A program made the translations under genes and the position numbers. A stretch of DNA of 64,000 nt from Rhodospirillales bacterium 69-11 (GTDB lineage: Bacteria > Pseudomonadota > Alphaproteobacteria > Acetobacterales > Acetobacteraceae): positions 186,029 through 250,028 of the forward strand of contig MKTV01000005.1 of NCBI GenBank assembly GCA_001898425.1. Direction: 5' to 3'. The notes beneath the pieces were generated by a model, which worked only from the letters and a program-made list of their open reading frames with translations, was not told the origin of the DNA and searched no databases. Shown piece by piece: positions 5,400 through 51,522 of this stretch (its first letter is position 1; each line of letters starts with the position of its first letter).

Positions 5400-6643
5400 G
5401 CCAGGTCGGTCCCGCCGGCATCGCGTCGCCGCCAGACCAGGCCGATCACCGCGACCAGCACGAATCCGGTCGCGGAGACCGCGTCGATCGCCCGCAGCGG
5501 TCCCAGCAGGCTTCCGAGCGCACCGACCAGCAGGATGCCGAGGGGGCCCATGCCGATGCAGACGGTCAGCAGCCCCATCAGGCGTGAGCGGATGGCCGGC
5601 GGCGCATGCAGCACGATCAGCGCGGTCTGCATGTTGGCGAAGGCCGCCGATCCGAATCCCCCCGCCACCAGCAGCAGTGATGCGATCCCGAATGCGGGCG
5701 CCAGCGGCATCATGAACACGCAGCCCAGGAAGAACAGGGAGCCGCCCACCATCAGGACGCGGCCTGACCAGCGCGGCTCCCGCGTGGTCAGCCAGAGCCC
5801 GCCCAGGAACGCGCCGAACGCCTCGGAGGCGGCCAGGACGCCGACCAGCGTGTCGGAGACGTGGAACACCTGCTTGCCGATCGGGGCGACCAGGGCGCTG
5901 TAGGGGAAGCCCAGCAGGTTCATCGCGATCGTCACGGCGAGCACGCCCGCGATGGTCAGGTGCCCGCGGGCGAAGCGCATGCCTTCGGCGAGGTCGCGCG
6001 GCACGTGGCTCAAGACCAGGCGGCGGACGTCCTGCCGATAGGGCAGGCCGGCGACCAGCGTGGCCGAGACGGCATAGACCACGGTCGAGGCGACGAACGC
6101 GCCGGCGACGCCCCAGCGCTGATACAGCGCACCAGCCGCGATCGGGCCGATGAGCCGCGTCAGCGAGTTGGTCATCGCATCGAGCGCAAGCGCGCGGGCG
6201 ACCAGCGGGGCCGCCACGCATTCCCCCACCATGCGGCGACGGGTCGCCATCTCGGTCGACCACACGAGGCCGGCGACGAGCGCCGCGGCGGCGAGATGCC
6301 ATGGCAGCAGCCAACCGGCCCAGGCGAGCAGCGCGACGCTGGCCGAGGCCAGGCCGGTCAGGACCTGTCCCGCGAACAGCACGTGCTTGCGGTTCACCGC
6401 CTCCGACGCCACGCCGGCGAAGGCGCCCAGCAGCAACATCGGCAGCGTGCGCGCGGCCGAGACCACGGCGACCGCGAAGCCCGATCCCGTGACGTCGAAG
6501 GTGAACAGCGCGGCGGCCAGCACCTCGAACCAGCGCATCGTGTTCGCGCATCCGCCGATCGCCCAGAGCCGCAGGTATCCGGGCGAGGACGCGAGCGCGC
6601 GCAGCCCCCGTTCGGCAGGTGCATCCGAGTCCGGCATTGCCAT
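5309..6643 (-). CDS. MFS transporter, EntS/MFS_3-like exporter
   Basis: Inner-membrane major facilitator, 444 residues, with about 12 hydrophobic segments and an AEGMRFARGHLTIAGVL-type central loop characteristic of the enterobactin-exporter-like MFS_3 group. It probably exports a small molecule by proton antiport; the substrate is unknown. The C-terminal 45 residues or so are low-complexity Ala/Ser/Arg and overlap the convergent HAD gene, so the original stop was probably upstream of the present one (inference). The amidase gene ends 9 bases upstream of this start, so the two likely form one transcript. Confidence 0.87.
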   Translation of the reverse strand: MAMPDSDAPAERGLRALASSPGYLRLWAIGGCANTMRWFEVLAAALFTFDVTGSGFAVAVVSAARTLPMLLLGAFAGVASEAVNRKHVLFAGQVLTGLASASVALLAWAGWLLPWHLAAAALVAGLVWSTEMATRRRMVGECVAAPLVARALALDAMTNSLTRLIGPIAAGALYQRWGVAGAFVASTVVYAVSATLVAGLPYRQDVRRLVLSHVPRDLAEGMRFARGHLTIAGVLAVTIAMNLLGFPYSALVAPIGKQVFHVSDTLVGVLAASEAFGAFLGGLWLTTREPRWSGRVLMVGGSLFFLGCVFMMPLAPAFGIASLLLVAGGFGSAAFANMQTALIVLHAPPAIRSRLMGLLTVCIGMGPLGILLVGALGSLLGPLRAIDAVSATGFVLVAVIGLVWRRRDAGGTDLAQAVAASAGTTAGASASRSAPAARSSASPP

Positions 6644-6652
6644 CGGGTGCGG

Positions 6653-8140
6653 TCAGTCCTCCCGCGTCACATGGACCGGCGGAATCGCCCCGAACCAGCC
6701 GGGCCGCGCCTGCTCGACCTGTGTCGCGAGCTGCAGCAGCCGCGCCTCCCCGCCGAACGCCGCGTGGAGCTGCACGCCGATCGGCAGGTCGTCCGTGTCG
6801 AACCCTGCGGGCAGGCTGATCGCCGGATGGCCGGTCTCGTTGCCGGGCATGGTGTAGCGGCACGCATCGGCGAGGCGGCCCACCCAGGGATCGAGTTCCT
6901 CGTCCCGCAACAGCGAGTAGGGGCCGTTCGCGAGCGGCACGCGGATCGCGAGCGTCGGTGTCAGCAGCGCGTCGTAGCGGTCGAAGAACGCGCCCCATTG
7001 CCGCGTGACGGTGTTGTTGGCGTTCATCATGCGCAGCAGGTCGAACTTGTCGTAGCGCTCGCTGGCCAGGTAGTGCCGCCAGGTCATCGGGTTCAGCAGC
7101 GTCTGCAGCTGCTGGCGGCCGATGCCCTTCTCCTCCGCCATCAGCGTGAACATCGCGCGGCTGCCGACCCATTGCGTGACGTAGGCCGACCACAGCGTCG
7201 GCCAGTCGCAGATCGTCGCATCGTCGACCTCCTCGACCGCGTGGCCGAGGCTTTCGAGCAGGCGCGCGACCTCGTGGACGCGGGCGGCGACCTGCTTGTC
7301 GGTGTCGCCCTCGCGTCCCCAGCGCCCGGTCGACAGCGCGATGCGCAGGCGCCCCGGGGGCCGGGCGATGGCGTCGCGGTAAGACCCTTGCGGCGGCCCC
7401 ATGCGGATGAAGGAGCCGCCGGTGGGCACGTGCGTCAGGTAGTCGTAGACCGCGGCGGTGTCGCGCACGCTGCGGCTCACCACGCCGTCGATGCTGATGC
7501 GCGTGACGTATTCGTTGCGACCCAGCGGCTGGGGGACGCGGCCGCGGGAGGCCTTGAGGCCGACGAGGCCGCAGAAGGAGGCGGGGATGCGGGTCGAGCC
7601 GCCGCCATCCGAGGACATCGACAGCGGCACCGCGCCCGCGGCGACCATCGCGGCGGACCCGCCGGAGGAGCCGCCGGGCGTGCGCTCCAGGTTCCATGGG
7701 CTGCGGGTGACGGTCACGTCGCCCTCGTACTCGGTGACCGTGTCGAAGGTCATGCCGAACTCGGGCGTGGCCGAGCGGCCCAGCGGCACCAGGCCCGCGC
7801 GCAGGAAATTGGCGATGGAGGGATCGGTGGCCGCGATCCGCGTGCCGCGGGTGAAGGCGGAGCCGGAGTCCTGGGTCTGTCCCGCAAGGCCCGAGCCGAG
7901 GTCCTTCAGGAACATCGGCACGCCGTACAACGCGCCGTCGCGAGCCGGCCGATCCGTGTCGGGCGCTTCGGCCGCGTGGGCAAACAGCTCGATCACGCCT
8001 TGCAGTTTCGGGTTCAGCCGCGTGACGGCCTCGCTTGCCTGCTGCGCGAGCTCCGCGGCCGTGAGCTCTCCCTTGCACACCCGTTCGGCCAGCGCGGTCG
8101 CGTCGTGGCGCGCCCACGCATCCCAGCTCATTGCCGGCAT
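6653..8140 (-). CDS. Amidase (amidase-signature family)
   Basis: Hydrolyses an amide bond; 495 residues. The amidase signature is complete. The catalytic Lys lies in GVPMFLKDLGSG, the bridging Ser in the glycine/serine-rich TPGGSSGGSAAMVAAG, and the nucleophilic Ser in DGGGSTRIPAS. This is the Lys-cisSer-Ser triad known from glutamyl-tRNA amidotransferase A and aryl-acylamidases. No gatB/gatC genes are adjacent, so a catabolic role is more likely. The ATG at 8140 is preceded by GGGGGAG at good spacing. The product of hydrolysis may be exported by the MFS gene just downstream (inference). Confidence 0.92.
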   Translation of the reverse strand: MPAMSWDAWARHDATALAERVCKGELTAAELAQQASEAVTRLNPKLQGVIELFAHAAEAPDTDRPARDGALYGVPMFLKDLGSGLAGQTQDSGSAFTRGTRIAATDPSIANFLRAGLVPLGRSATPEFGMTFDTVTEYEGDVTVTRSPWNLERTPGGSSGGSAAMVAAGAVPLSMSSDGGGSTRIPASFCGLVGLKASRGRVPQPLGRNEYVTRISIDGVVSRSVRDTAAVYDYLTHVPTGGSFIRMGPPQGSYRDAIARPPGRLRIALSTGRWGREGDTDKQVAARVHEVARLLESLGHAVEEVDDATICDWPTLWSAYVTQWVGSRAMFTLMAEEKGIGRQQLQTLLNPMTWRHYLASERYDKFDLLRMMNANNTVTRQWGAFFDRYDALLTPTLAIRVPLANGPYSLLRDEELDPWVGRLADACRYTMPGNETGHPAISLPAGFDTDDLPIGVQLHAAFGGEARLLQLATQVEQARPGWFGAIPPVHVTRED

Positions 8141-43811: not shown

Positions 43812-44042
43812 GCTGTCGGGCCAGACCGGCTCGTCGGGTGTCGAGGTCGGTCGGCGACCCCTCCTTTCCCTGCAGCGTCATGGCCGGGCTCGACCCGGCC
43901 GCCCCGTCTCCGTCATGGCCGGGCTCGACCCGGCCGCCCCCGTCCCCGTCATGGCCGGGCTCGACCCGGCCATCCCAGCCTCTCGCAATCGCGTGGTCGG
44001 GATCCGCGGGTCAAGCCCGCGGATGACGGAGGGGGCGCGCTC
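43812..44042. repeat. Convergent gap with three tandem REP-like cores
   Basis: The core GTCATGGCCGGGCTCGACC plus CGGCC occurs at 43877, 43912 and 43948, a 35-36-bp period with GCCCCGTCTCC-type spacers. The array ends with GATCCGCGGG-TCAAG-CCCGCGGATGACGG (to 44029). It lies between the convergent DsbA-like and hppA genes. Confidence 0.85.
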
Positions 44043-46461: not shown

Positions 46462-46889
46462 AGGTTCCGCTACCTTTCCGCCACTCGGGGACCAGCGGAT
46501 CGCCTCCGTTCCGACCATGGCGCCAATCGGTCCGCGGCCGCCCCGGCACGTGAAATCATTCCGGATAAGATTTTTTCTGCCATCGTCTGCCAATTCTCTC
46601 ATCATCCATTGGAGCGATGCAATGATCGGAATTCGAGGTGGAAAATGATGGGGCCTGTCGCGGCCGTACATCATTCATTCCGTCCCGCAAAGTCGTCACG
46701 CATTCCTGATGGAACGCGATAGTCCGAGAACTTTCCGATCGTGGCTGAAGCAGTTCTGCCCCGTTAAAGTCTTTCCGTTACTTGTTTTGGCTTGTGGTCG
46801 CGAAGCGGCATGACGGTCCATGCCCCTTGCGCGCAAATGAGAACGCGAACCGGGCAGACACGTCGCACGAGAAAACAGGGGGGTGCCTG
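46462..46889. other. 428-bp lower-GC gap between the tRNA and ArsR
   Basis: The stretch is clearly richer in A/T than its surroundings (for example around 46550-46780). No promoter stands out. One small frame, 46645-46722 (25 codons), has a good ribosome binding site. Low GC next to a tRNA 3' end is a common integration scar, but I find no direct repeat of the tRNA end nearby. Confidence 0.5.
46645..46722 (+). CDS. Possible 25-residue small ORF
   Basis: ATG at 46645 with GAGG six bases upstream; it encodes MMGPVAAVHHSFRPAKSSRI and five further residues. No recognised family or membrane segment. It lies in an A/T-richer gap, and the only support is the ribosome binding site. Confidence 0.2.
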   Translation: MMGPVAAVHHSFRPAKSSRIPDGTR

Positions 46890-47294
46890 ATGGCGTTCAA
46901 CAGCAATCCGGGCGGGCCTCGCCACGAGGCGCCCGACAGGCGAGGCATGCTTGCCGTTCCGCCTCCACCCCCGACGGACCTGATGCCCCATGCGGGCACG
47001 GCGGTGGACGAGGGGCGCGTCGTTGCCATGCTCAGCGCCCTCGGTCAGGAAATCCGCCTCGACCTCTGGCGCCTGCTTGCGGAACACGGGTCGGAGGGGC
47101 TGGCGGCCGGGGTGATCGCCGCACGCTTGTCGCTCGCCCCGTCCTCGCTGTCCTTTCACCTGCAACAGCTCACGCAGGCGGGGTTGCTGGTCCATCGCAG
47201 GTCGAGCCGGCGGATCATCTACGCCGCGAACCGGGCCATGATGCACGAACTGCTCGGGTTCCTGTCCCAGACGGCCGACGCGGCGGGCGACTAG
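46890..47294 (+). CDS. ArsR-family winged-helix regulator
   Basis: 134 residues with a 45-residue Pro/Gly-rich lead, then the ArsR-type DNA-binding domain: AMLSALGQEIRLDLWRLLAEHG, VIAARLSLAPSSLSFHLQQLTQAGLLVHRRSSRRIIYAANRAMM. The ELCVCDL metal-binding motif of ArsR/SmtB is absent (the position reads GSEGLAAGV), so it does not sense arsenic in the classical way. The ATG has AGGGGGG upstream. Its target is unknown; the secreted-protein cluster lies about 0.8 kb downstream. Confidence 0.85.
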   Translation: MAFNSNPGGPRHEAPDRRGMLAVPPPPPTDLMPHAGTAVDEGRVVAMLSALGQEIRLDLWRLLAEHGSEGLAAGVIAARLSLAPSSLSFHLQQLTQAGLLVHRRSSRRIIYAANRAMMHELLGFLSQTADAAGD

Positions 47295-47412: not shown

Positions 47413-47778
47413 TCAGTGCGGCGGGAGGTCCCCGGGTGTCGGCGAAGGAGATCCGGCAAGGAGATCGTCGAGCGCGGAGCCGGCGAGGGCGAGCAGCGGC
47501 GCGACGTCCTCGGCCGGCATCTCGGCATGCCGCTGCAGCAACCGGCGCGCGATCGCGGCCTTCATGCGCACGGCACCGGGCTCCGTGGCGGGCGTGGCCG
47601 TCAGCGCCTCCAGGCAGCCCTGACGTTCGGCCAATGCGTCTTCCAGCTTCAGCCAGAGGGTGTTGCGCCGCTCGTCCGCCGGGGCGAGCGCAGCGATCTC
47701 CTGATCGAGCGTGGCGCACCGCGCCTCCGCTGCTTCGAAACGCCTCGCCAGTGTCGCAACGCAAGCCGGTTCCGTCAT
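47413..47778 (-). CDS. Hypothetical protein, helical
   Basis: 121 residues, no recognised family. The sequence from residue 5 to about 60 (LARRFEAAEARCATLDQEIAAL and onward) has the heptad-like Leu/Ala/Glu pattern of a short coiled coil, followed by a second helical segment and a Pro-rich end. No signal peptide. The ATG at 47778 has only a weak ribosome binding site; upstream in-frame starts lead into low-complexity sequence. Convergent with ArsR. Confidence 0.5.
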   Translation of the reverse strand: MTEPACVATLARRFEAAEARCATLDQEIAALAPADERRNTLWLKLEDALAERQGCLEALTATPATEPGAVRMKAAIARRLLQRHAEMPAEDVAPLLALAGSALDDLLAGSPSPTPGDLPPH

Positions 47779-47942: not shown

Positions 47943-47974
47943 TTCGACTCTTCGATTATGGTCGAAACGTCGAA
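47943..47974. promoter_or_regulatory. Nested double inverted repeat upstream of the secreted-protein cluster
   Basis: TTCGA-CTC-TTCGA-TTATGG-TCGAA-ACG-TCGAA: two TTCGA half-sites on the left mirrored by two TCGAA half-sites on the right, with symmetric 3-6-3 spacing over 32 bp. Such order suggests cooperative binding of two protein dimers. It lies about 75 bases upstream of the candidate transcription start, a normal activator position. Confidence 0.6.
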
Positions 47975-48122: not shown

Positions 48123-48491
48123 ATGCGTAAACTGCTTCTTGCAGCCGCCGGTGCCCTGTGCCTCGCGTCGGCTCCGGCTTTCGCGGGCGGTCTGTTCGTG
48201 GCGGGCGGCACGGGCGCCAGCGTCGGCGGCGGCTCCAGCGCGTCTGGCGGCAGCTCGGTCGGCGGCGTCGGCCCCTCTGCGGCGCTCGCCGGCTCGTCCG
48301 GTTCTGCCTACAGCACGACCAGCCTTTCGACCGGGCTGACTGGTGGGTCCATCTCGACCTACTCCACGCAGCACGGGACCGTGGGCGGGATCTCGAGCGG
48401 CTTCGCGGGCTTCGCGGCCGGCGGCAGCCAGGGCGCGCAGACGAGCGGCCATGGCTTCACCGGGATCGTCGGCGGCGTGTCGCTGCCCTGA
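48123..48491 (+). CDS. Small secreted Gly/Ser-rich protein 1
   Basis: 122 residues. A clear signal peptide (MRKLLLAAAGALCLASAPAFA, cleavage after AFA) is followed by about 100 residues composed largely of Gly, Ser, Ala and Thr (GGGSSASGGSSVGGVGPS and similar). No Cys and almost no charged residues. The low-complexity, beta-prone character recalls extracellular fibre or matrix proteins, but no family is recognised. The ATG has GGAG seven bases upstream. First of four closely spaced secreted-protein genes. Confidence 0.75.
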   Translation: MRKLLLAAAGALCLASAPAFAGGLFVAGGTGASVGGGSSASGGSSVGGVGPSAALAGSSGSAYSTTSLSTGLTGGSISTYSTQHGTVGGISSGFAGFAAGGSQGAQTSGHGFTGIVGGVSLP

Positions 48492-48569
48492 TATCCGGTC
48501 GGGCGGCGGCGATCTCGGTCGCCGCCGCCCGCTCGACCGTCCCTTCATCGTCCGACCGTGGAGATCGCC

Positions 48570-48899
48570 ATGCGCCGGTTCCTCGCCTCTACCGCCATCC
48601 TCGCCGCCTTCTTCGCGGCCGTCGCGTTCACTCCCGCCTACGCCGGCAGCTACAGCAGCGTCGGCGCCAGCGCCGGAGCTACGTCCTCCGCGACCGCCAA
48701 CAGCAGCAATGGTGGCGCCGCGATCGTCGGCGCGCAGAGCTTCGGCGGCACCATGATCGGCGTCACGCCGAACAGCATCGCCACTGGGTCCACCATCAGC
48801 ACGCGAACCATGGGTGCCTCCACCGGCACGGCCTCGTTCACCGGTTCCAGCAGTGCGACGGCACACAGCTTTGGTTACGGCGGCTGGTCCATGCATTGA
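48570..48899 (+). CDS. Small secreted Ser/Thr/Gly-rich protein 2
   Basis: 109 residues. Signal peptide MRRFLASTAILAAFFAAVAF through AYA, then a Ser/Thr/Ala/Gly-rich mature chain (SSVGASAGATSSATANSS) ending in aromatic GYGGWSMH. The segment GSTISTRTMGAS resembles GSISTYSTQHG of protein 1, so the two may be paralogues. The ATG at 48570 follows GGAG at six bases; an in-frame GTG at 48558 is less likely. 78 bp after protein 1. Function unknown. Confidence 0.72.
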   Translation: MRRFLASTAILAAFFAAVAFTPAYAGSYSSVGASAGATSSATANSSNGGAAIVGAQSFGGTMIGVTPNSIATGSTISTRTMGASTGTASFTGSSSATAHSFGYGGWSMH

Positions 48900-48949
48900 C
48901 CGCCGCAACACTTCGATCGCCTCGCACGGATTTCGACAGGAGACATTCC

Positions 48950-49267
48950 ATGCGGACCATCCGACCCGGACTCTGGCTCGCCGCCGGATTGCTTGCGCCG
49001 GCAGCGGCCTTCGCCCAGGCCCATAGCGGCACGACGACCGGCGTCACCATCACCGGCCCAGGCAGCGGCGCCGTCGCCTATGCCGGCAACGGCTCCTACG
49101 GCGTCAGCATCAACGGCAACGGTTTCAGCAGCAATTCGTATTTCAGCGGCGGGATCAACACTGGCCCGAACGGCGGCACCAGCTTCGGCGGTGGCGGGGG
49201 CTCGTTCACCAGCACGATCAACGGGCACACCTATTCATGGTCGGGTTCCTGGGGATCGCAATTCTGA
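48950..49267 (+). CDS. Small secreted Gly/Asn/Ser-rich protein 3
   Basis: 105 residues. Signal peptide MRTIRPGLWLAAGLLAPAAA through FAQA. The mature chain alternates small polar and hydrophobic residues (GVTITGPGSGAVAYAGNGSY, then SINGNGFSSNSYFSGG) and ends in TINGHTYSWSGSWGSQF. The alternation and Asn/Gly turns fit a beta-solenoid or amyloid-like repeat (inference). AGGAG lies seven bases before the ATG. 50 bp after protein 2. Confidence 0.72.
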   Translation: MRTIRPGLWLAAGLLAPAAAFAQAHSGTTTGVTITGPGSGAVAYAGNGSYGVSINGNGFSSNSYFSGGINTGPNGGTSFGGGGGSFTSTINGHTYSWSGSWGSQF

Positions 49268-49307
49268 CAAGAAGGCCGCCCGCAGGCAGCCAAAAGAGGG
49301 AAGCGTC

Positions 49308-50249
49308 ATGCGTATCACCATCATCCTGGCGGCCTGCGTCGCCGCCGTCGCGCTCGCCCCGCATCGGGGCATGGCGCAGGCCACCATCACAGAGAACATC
49401 AACAACACCGGGCTTCCGAGCATCCCGAGAAACGCGCCGGCGCTCGGCCTGTCCAACATCTACGGGCTCAATCCCTGCGCGACCGGTTCGTCGGTCGGCG
49501 TCACCACGCCGCTGTTCGGCCTGGGCGGCGCGATCAGCGACATCGATCGGGAGTGCGAGACCCGCAACAACGCCGCGGTGGTGATCACCGGCCTGAAGGA
49601 CGAGGCCCTGGCGCGCGAGATCCTGTGCGAGATCAAGGACGTCCGCCAGGCCGCGATCCGCGTCGGGCGCCCCTGCCTGCAGGATCAACGCACCGCAGCC
49701 GCCGGCGGGCCGCCAGTCGCCTCCGCCGCGCCCGCTCCGGGACCGGTCCTGGCCGCCTCCGCCGCTCCGACACCCGTCATCGCGACGCCGCTGCCGCCGC
49801 CCGCCGCGACGCCCGTCCTCCAGCCTGGCGCGCCCGTCCGGGTTGCCCCGCCACCCGCGACGCAGGAGGCTGACGCGGCGCCGGCCACGACGGTGGTCGC
49901 GGGTGCGCCTGCCTTCTGCCGGACGCCCTGGCTGCAGGTGTCGCTCTATCCGGAATGCACGACCGCCCCGAGTGCGGCGCCCGCACCGAAGCCCGTGGCG
50001 CAGAGCAGGCCGGCGCCCCGTTCGGTGACCCGCGCGGCGCCTCCCGCCGTGGAGCCCGCGAGCGCCCCCGCGCCGCATCCGCCGGTGCCGCCGGCCGCGA
50101 CGACCGTCACCGCCGCCATCCCCGGCTGCAACATCCCGAGCGCGCTGCTGGCGATGTATCCGGAGTGCCGCGCGGGCGCTTCATCCACCCATGTCGCCGC
50201 GGCGAGCACGCCGCACCAGCGACTGGCGCTCGCCACGCCCGCCCGCTGA
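49308..50249 (+). CDS. Secreted Pro/Ala-rich protein 4 with cysteine-bearing N-domain and duplicated C-terminal motif
   Basis: 313 residues. A signal peptide ends at AMA. Residues about 25-125 form a compact domain with cysteines in GLNPCATG, DRECETRNN, ILCEIKDV and GRPCLQD, the only well-structured part. A long Pro/Ala-rich region follows, in which a motif C-x2-P-x6-Y-P-E-C appears twice, at residues 204-217 and 274-287. This is the only member of the four with Cys, so it may anchor, cap or cross-link the Gly/Ser-rich partners (inference). AGAGGGAAG precedes the ATG. 40 bp after protein 3. Confidence 0.75.
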   Translation: MRITIILAACVAAVALAPHRGMAQATITENINNTGLPSIPRNAPALGLSNIYGLNPCATGSSVGVTTPLFGLGGAISDIDRECETRNNAAVVITGLKDEALAREILCEIKDVRQAAIRVGRPCLQDQRTAAAGGPPVASAAPAPGPVLAASAAPTPVIATPLPPPAATPVLQPGAPVRVAPPPATQEADAAPATTVVAGAPAFCRTPWLQVSLYPECTTAPSAAPAPKPVAQSRPAPRSVTRAAPPAVEPASAPAPHPPVPPAATTVTAAIPGCNIPSALLAMYPECRAGASSTHVAAASTPHQRLALATPAR

Positions 50250-50691
50250 TTGGACCGGGTTACGACGCCGGCCGGGACTCCCGGCCGGCGTTCGTGCGCG
50301 TCCGGCGTCGGGCGACAGGGTTCGTCCGCGCAGTGCAGCCGAACGCACGTGCGGCCGTTGGGAGGGCAGCCGATCGCCCTTCGGCCGATCGCCGTCCAGC
50401 CGATCGCCACTCAGCCGATTGCCGCCCAGTGGCTGGCGGCGTAGCCGTGGCCTGTGCGGCAGATGGTTCGCTCCGTAACAGATCGCACGCAAATCAGCGA
50501 TGCGAGTGTCGGATAAAGACGGCACCGCGCGCAGGAACGTCGTCGAAGTCGATCGATCACACGTTCCCAACTCTATTTGACGCTTTTGTGTTGCAATCTA
50601 CGAACTGTTTTGTCGTCGTTTGCGTTGCACTTGGGTCTCGTTCTCCCGGCGGCAGCATCGGCCGTCGCATCGGGAACGGGGATACGCCCAC
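50250..50691. repeat. 442-bp gap with four 15-bp tandem repeats, a promoter and an inverted repeat
   Basis: 50367-50426 holds four 15-bp units, C(A/G)GCCGAT(C/T)GCC plus three variable bases. In the frame continuing past the stop of protein 4 they read QPIAL-RPIAV-QPIAT-QPIAA. 50534-50567 has GGAACGT-N20-ACGTTCC. A promoter candidate lies at 50577-50604. The second half of the gap is A/T-richer than the first. Confidence 0.65.
50577..50604 (+). promoter_or_regulatory. Candidate promoter of the hypothetical gene at 50692
   Basis: TTGACG, 16 bases, TACGAA, in an A/T-rich stretch about 90 bases before the ATG. The inverted repeat GGAACGT/ACGTTCC ends ten bases upstream of the -35 box and could be its operator. 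Confidence 0.5.
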
Positions 50692-51522
50692 ATGCACATT
50701 TCAAAGCCCGACCATCTCAAGCCACGCTTTGCCTGGGACGACTGGCACCATCCGACACCCCTCGCGCTGAACGAAATCGACCTGGGCACCTGGCGCGATG
50801 GCGCCTACCTGCACGCGGGCCGCGGGTTCGCCCCACATGCGGTGGCGATCGACGGGACCGCGCAGGCCAGCGTCGATATCGGCCTCACCGCACTGGTGCC
50901 GAACGACTATGCCGCGATCCACATCTCCCTCGGCAACGTCATCGATTTCGACGCGTTCGGCCGCGGCGGCGCCGTGGGCAGCATCACCACGGCCGCCGTC
51001 GGCAGCGCCCAGCTGACCATCGAGGACGGCAAGCTCGTGGGCGGCTACGCGGCGACGCTCAGCATGGAGCTCACGGCCGAACTGCCGTCGAGCCATACCC
51101 TGATCCACATGCGCGTCACCGACAGCTTCACCTTCACGCTGAGCGGCAACGGATGGAGCGATGCGACGCTCGCCACCACGGCGGCCAGCGAGGGGACGGT
51201 GCAGACCGATCCTGCCGGCAACGGACCGGCCGCCTGCGGCGGGTTCGATCTCGCTCGCTTCGCCGCCTCCGTCCTCGGGACCGGCGACTGGTCGATGAAG
51301 TTCGTCGCATCGCAGGCCGGGACGACGCTGCAGGGGAAGGGGGTCTCCACCCTGTCGATCGACGCGACCGCCGATCTGCCCGGCGGGTGGGGCGGCCAGC
51401 ATCTGTCGTACCACGACGTCCAGCGGAGCGCCTTCGCCTTCGATGCGGGCGCTCCCGCCGGCGGACCGGGATGCTGGATCCCGGAGGCGAAGCCGGCGAT
51501 GCCGCCCCTGTTCCACCACTGA
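50692..51522 (+). CDS. Hypothetical protein, beta-rich
   Basis: 276 residues, no recognised family. No signal peptide: the N-terminus is MHISKPDHLKPRFAWDDWHH. From residue 60 on, the chain is a run of alternating Thr/Ala/Ile/Val segments with Gly/Asp turns (ASVDIGLTALVPNDYAAIHI), suggesting an all-beta fold. Two Cys near residues 182 and 264. It follows the secreted-protein cluster but has its own promoter candidate. GGGGA lies upstream of the ATG at 50692. Confidence 0.65.
   Translation: MHISKPDHLKPRFAWDDWHHPTPLALNEIDLGTWRDGAYLHAGRGFAPHAVAIDGTAQASVDIGLTALVPNDYAAIHISLGNVIDFDAFGRGGAVGSITTAAVGSAQLTIEDGKLVGGYAATLSMELTAELPSSHTLIHMRVTDSFTFTLSGNGWSDATLATTAASEGTVQTDPAGNGPAACGGFDLARFAASVLGTGDWSMKFVASQAGTTLQGKGVSTLSIDATADLPGGWGGQHLSYHDVQRSAFAFDAGAPAGGPGCWIPEAKPAMPPLFHH

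Follow-up and report, generated by a model that had tools for sequence, protein, structure and literature searches.

Small, nearly charge-free secretory proteins recur beside a four-cysteine domain protein in bacteria and prophage-like viral contigs

A run of four small genes in the genome of Rhodospirillales bacterium 69-11, each predicted to encode a secreted protein, raises the question of whether these genes form a unit and what such a unit might build. They lie in the 64,000-nucleotide stretch of contig MKTV01000005.1 that was analysed here in full, hereafter called the window. An initial annotation had suggested subunits of an extracellular fibre, coat or adhesin with a fourth protein anchoring or capping it. 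The features relevant to the question are as follows.

46782..47294, + strand: ArsR/HTH_20-type winged-helix regulator (HTH_20 E 4.6e-10, 39.7 bits against a cut-off of 27)
47416..47778, − strand: P7, divergent small soluble protein, with 33% identical homologues in the same place in genomes G020 and G005
47943..47966, + strand: operator-like motif TTCGACTCTTCGATTATGGTCGAA, a TTCGA-N6-TCGAA inverted repeat plus an extra half-site
48123..48491, + strand: P1, 122 aa, predicted secreted, Gly/Ser/Thr-rich, 0 charged residues in the mature chain
48570..48899, + strand: P2, 109 aa, predicted secreted, Gly/Ser/Thr-rich, 1 charged residue in the mature chain
48950..49267, + strand: P3, 105 aa, predicted secreted, Gly/Ser/Thr/Asn-rich, 0 charged residues in the mature chain
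49308..50249, + strand: P4, 313 aa, predicted secreted, four-Cys domain and Pro/Ala-rich tail
49455..49685, + strand: four-Cys domain of P4, residues 50–126, with invariant C57, C83, C107 and C123
50265..50291, strand not applicable: perfect 13-bp inverted repeat with a 1-nt spacer, 15 bp past the P4 stop
50692..51522, + strand: P5, 276 aa, without signal peptide, last conserved cluster gene in the genus

The four ORFs are consecutive on the + strand, with gaps of 78, 50 and 40 bp between P1 and P2, P2 and P3, and P3 and P4, just as initially described; the boundaries drawn around them, however, were too narrow. The unit spans 46.8–51.5 kb, and the regulator, P7, P5 and the connection to phages had been overlooked. 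Its whole order (regulator, divergent small gene, P1, P2, P3, P4, P5) is the same in G020 and G005, two Acetobacteraceae MAGs that represent other species of the same genus as the window genome. The syntenic regulators are 48–53% identical, and the P5 homologues, at the equivalent position, are 38% identical. P5 was not found in 298 other genomes sampled across the order, and P7 had no match in a Pfam search. Only a few P4 relatives were detected among the 59 related genomes searched, 32 of them from the same genus, and the cluster is accessory by this measure. We discounted weak P4 matches in G011 and at G000:C56 that lay entirely or in part within the query's Pro/Ala-rich tail. Around the cluster, reading of the ORFs by eye revealed genes of the H+-pyrophosphatase, short-chain dehydrogenase and SAICAR synthetase types, and no phage genes among the neighbouring ORFs.

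The inverted repeat at 50265..50291 could be a hairpin for transcript ending or processing; it has no T-run, and a terminator scan made no call there. Between P4 and P5, at 50352–50411, a 30-bp imperfect direct repeat (CGGCCGATCGCC-like) occurs in two adjacent copies. Elsewhere in the window, a short stretch at 43838–44026 translates as repeated MAGLDPA / WPGSTRP and resembles interspersed intergenic repeats found in other places; locus L010 (5794–6416) translates similarly.

The leaders of all four proteins appear by eye as positively charged, hydrophobic and A-X-A-ended, and those of P1–P3 also satisfy a scripted signal-peptide rule, in agreement with the signal peptides first predicted. The mature chains of P1–P3 contain no Cys and, as had been noted, are of low complexity and nearly free of charge, with 0, 1 and 0 charged residues. 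To express this as a fixed rule, we asked for a signal-peptide-like start, a GSTAN fraction of at least 0.62, a charge of at most 6% and a length of 75–280 aa. P1–P3 are the sole three ORFs in the 64-kb window with these properties, and none was found in 400 kb of control DNA made up of twenty 20-kb stretches from six module-bearing genomes, the window's own included. The similarity claimed between P1 and P2 is weak but exceeds that of shuffled sequences, with a score of 98 against a shuffle mean of 69 that was reached by 2 of 500 composition-matched shuffles; the same comparison gave no similarity between P1 and P3 or between P2 and P3. Against the two syntenic genomes, pN is lower than pS for all cluster genes, with the widest margin in the P4 domain (pN 0.11–0.16, pS 0.66–0.74), which argues that the genes are real. 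Conservation between species is poor for P2 and P3 and better for P1 and P2 in the pair formed by the window and G020, where z against shuffles is 12.1 for P1, 10.6 for P2 and 2.6 for P3. These comparisons establish P1–P3 as short, nearly charge-free, predicted secretory proteins under purifying selection.

P4 does combine a cysteine-bearing domain with a Pro/Ala-rich tail. In alignments of 12–20 homologues, the domain displays four invariant Cys together with conserved Gly and Asp in fixed order; the linker between leader and domain is short in the window protein and long in the homologues. Profile searches, proposed earlier as a check, bore fruit for this domain but not for P1–P3, which have no Pfam match at E ≤ 1. 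Pfam and NCBIfam models do not match the P4 domain, and residues 51–133 match PHROG 20531, a phage family of unknown function, with an E of 3e-8. For finding further relatives, a broad profile that included low-complexity columns (A9) was insensitive, and a trimmed domain profile worked. Two P4-like proteins, one from Novosphingobium and one from an IMG/VR contig, have a C-terminal OmpA domain (E about 1e-17), a domain that binds peptidoglycan in known proteins; the tails of other P4-like proteins are Pro/Ala-rich.

Structure prediction added little. The AlphaFold models of P4 and P5 are of low confidence (mean pLDDT 56.6 and 53.1), and therefore the β-solenoid or amyloid fold that prediction had been expected to look for is not shown. 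Four helices were modelled with moderate confidence in the latter half of the P4 domain; the P5 model, of low confidence, is all-beta. A fold search with this P5 model retrieved pore-forming proteins at a TM of about 0.17, which we reject as noise from a model of low confidence. No credible homology with solved structures was found. The P4 model retrieved only weak matches. Most of these were uncharacterised proteins of phages, and one came from a phage with a member of the P4 family.

Searches with tblastn and profiles located the P4 domain in Pelagibacter, Achromobacter and Agrobacterium phages, in Novosphingobium and in Burkholderia. Among 397 other genomes sampled from the phylum, 6 carry it, and it also occurs in Burkholderiales and one alphaproteobacterial order, a patchy distribution. 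Viral scans yielded at least 591 relatives on marine viral contigs in one case and 17 in IMG/VR in another; the domain is also present in at least 10 named phages.

An ORF satisfying the strict rule adjoins the P4-like gene in 16 of 19 bacterial loci, which amount to roughly eleven independent lineages because several share a genus; among the rest, L010 and L042 have a partner just outside the rule, and L041 has none. In IMG/VR, with the rule slightly loosened to a GSTAN fraction of 0.55 or more and a charge of 8% or less, 14 of 17 loci have a partner, with the limits that six of the 14 are near-identical and that one of those missed, L158, starts too near the contig end to judge. Partners mostly lie upstream of the P4-like gene, and downstream in L040, L170 and L171. 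Genome G739 has the domain alone, and at seven named phage loci a separate low-complexity partner is missing; most P4-like proteins of these phages hold a Ser/Thr/Asn/Gly-rich stretch of their own. The resemblance among partners is true sequence similarity in some lineages and one of composition only in others: P1 scored above all 500 composition-matched shuffles against a Burkholderia partner (z 4.5). A tblastn search with one low-complexity partner protein returned no matches, probably because of the low-complexity filter. It is well supported that P1–P3 and P4 form a conserved neighbourhood whose pairing spans two classes of Pseudomonadota and prophage-like contigs; the question of whether the genes recur together, raised at the outset, is answered by P4-like genes and small secreted low-complexity genes lying side by side in unrelated bacteria and viral contigs.

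This bears on the notion that the cluster consists of unrelated small low-complexity genes that are neighbours by chance and share no function. Low-complexity composition can mimic similarity, and P3 is barely like its syntenic counterpart (z 2.6); nevertheless, recurrent adjacency against none in the 400 kb of control DNA, together with synteny and purifying selection, refutes chance for the pairing itself and makes the notion as a whole highly improbable.

Several loci have features of their own. In L054 (5398–8043), L055 (6754–8167) and L056 (1967–4607), from three genomes of one alphaproteobacterial genus, genes for several secreted NGNGN-repeat proteins lie in a row between a LuxR-type regulator gene and the P4-like gene; this is the sole lineage in which the partners are regular repeats, and they look like candidate β-solenoid or amyloid repeats. 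A small secreted protein 3′ of the P4-like gene is seen in viral and Burkholderiales loci (L157 4344–4772, L160 4251–4679, L163 2586–3008, L167 4433–4765 and L038 5409–5741); it carries the motif APQYLPGYPTAATIWPRV.V.C with variations and was Pfam-negative in the two cases tested. A YkuD-like ORF just under the cut-off is present in L163 as well. Pelagiphages of different families keep a constant order of P4-like protein, a protein of 430–610 aa that is sometimes annotated as carbohydrate-binding, and a short protein (L017 4755–7349, L019 658–3170, L021 4725–7063, L022 4773–6955, L025 5797–8376, L177 1250–4313 and L178 4887–7237). In L167, an integrase-like ORF (5498–6748) directly adjoins the gene pair, and therefore some IMG/VR matches may be edges of genomic islands rather than phage genomes.

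The viral matches raise the possibility of an origin outside the host. The P4 domain could have arisen or spread in phages as part of an envelope-modification (moron) module, with secreted proteins altering the host surface or periplasm in superinfection exclusion, lysis timing or adsorption control, and with the bacterial clusters as domesticated copies. More than 590 marine viral contigs and the named phages carry the domain, the pair is found at most of the IMG/VR loci, PHROG 20531 is a phage family, and some viral loci add the downstream secreted protein and the sub-threshold YkuD-like protein. We nevertheless regard this origin as rather unlikely. The window cluster lies among housekeeping-type genes with no phage genes near it, by the same reading of ORFs; regulators differ between lineages, as in host operons, and the possible island edges weaken the IMG/VR count.

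Regulation offers a second handle on the module. The regulator probably starts inside its ORF, as its homologues begin near 46990. Upstream of P1, three species have in common the pattern TTCGAYTNTTCGAYTATNNTCGAA (47943–47966 in the window), and the regulator gene lies about 0.7 kb upstream. Shuffles of the window give an expectation of 0 for the motif, and each of the three whole genomes has exactly one match, at the cluster; as it was derived from these same loci, the independent part of this result is its uniqueness and not its conservation. The dedicated control region proposed earlier is thus borne out by a composite TTCGA motif that is conserved and unique to the locus in three genomes. 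From its position and the uniqueness of the motif, we infer that the ArsR-type protein binds the TTCGA motif upstream of P1. The regulator genes nearby vary: an ArsR-type gene in the window, and LuxR-type response regulators or LuxR-type proteins at several other loci. Next after the Burkholderia cluster comes a gene for a sigma-54 activator; its VpsR domain is known from biofilm regulators. A search for defence systems with PADLOC matched nothing but the generic HTH of the regulator.

An ArsR/HTH_20 regulator would suit a stress or wall-packing module of the periplasm, in which metal or redox signals induce chains that pack the periplasm or cover the wall and no external fibre is made. The OmpA-domain fusion and the four-Cys domain are consistent with this alternative, as is the failure of the CsgG search to find an outer-membrane pore; the LuxR or sigma-54 type regulators of other lineages argue against it, and we consider it improbable, a little more so than a phage origin.

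The reading we prefer, tentatively, is that of an accessory, separately regulated module that builds a material of low-complexity proteins at the envelope or surface of the cell. As the pairing recurs in distant bacteria and prophage-like viral contigs, the module is probably a previously undescribed envelope or surface-building kit. Sec would take P1–P4 across the inner membrane; the Gly/Ser/Thr-rich chains, without charge repulsion, would associate into a β-rich or gel-like polymer; the Cys domain of P4, disulfide-closed in the oxidising periplasm, might nucleate or hold the chains; and its Pro/Ala tail, or the OmpA domain in Novosphingobium, might attach the assembly to the wall. Through the TTCGA motif, the ArsR-type protein would repress the operon. 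Of the original proposal of fibre or coat subunits with P4 as anchor, the anchor fits the OmpA domain of the Novosphingobium homologue, but an outer-membrane export pore was not found; with CsgG absent and no such pore known, the material could be purely periplasmic.

A broader conjecture, which we think somewhat unlikely, is that the four-Cys domain defines a class of envelope assembly, unnamed so far, that soil bacteria share with very abundant marine phages. In such a system a conserved organiser would act with fast-evolving, charge-free, low-complexity polymers, akin to functional amyloids or condensates and with no known secretion pore. The domain of more than 590 marine viral contigs in any case gains a bacterial gene context of small secreted low-complexity neighbours, and an organiser of envelope or surface polymers would be a testable idea for a large class of phage dark-matter proteins. 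The module may exemplify a bacterial matrix or envelope operon of a kind not yet recognised.

Among known systems, curli (type VIII secretion, csg) is the closest in layout, being likewise an operon in which small Gly/Ser/Asn-rich subunits exported by Sec are encoded together with accessory secreted proteins, and pelagiphages have been reported to carry curli genes (PMC9599517). A curli-type amyloid system without recognisable parts is nonetheless largely refuted and hardly credible. CsgG (PF03783) is absent from 12 of 15 module-bearing genomes, the window's own included, in searches whose controls matched, and the three matches lie on different contigs or at a great distance from the module; none was found in the window genome or three relatives, and therefore the window cluster is not curli. 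P1–P4 have no Pfam match, with no recognised curlin in P1–P3, and the P4-like gene of HTVC023P has no annotated csg neighbour. The four-Cys domain protein also sets the module apart from curli systems as described (PMC9599517). By the tests made, the module is not a member of curli, in line with the first impression that no recognised fibre system is present. We found no published description of such a module in the open-access papers searched, although absence there is no proof.

The Fap functional amyloid of Pseudomonas comprises several secreted low-complexity proteins in one operon. The window shares this arrangement and differs in that P1–P4 have no credible Pfam or NCBIfam match, a comparison made by family search only. 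PHROG 20531 shares with P4 the region of residues 51–133, whereas its named phage members carry the Ser/Thr/Asn-rich stretch within the protein itself rather than in a separate partner.
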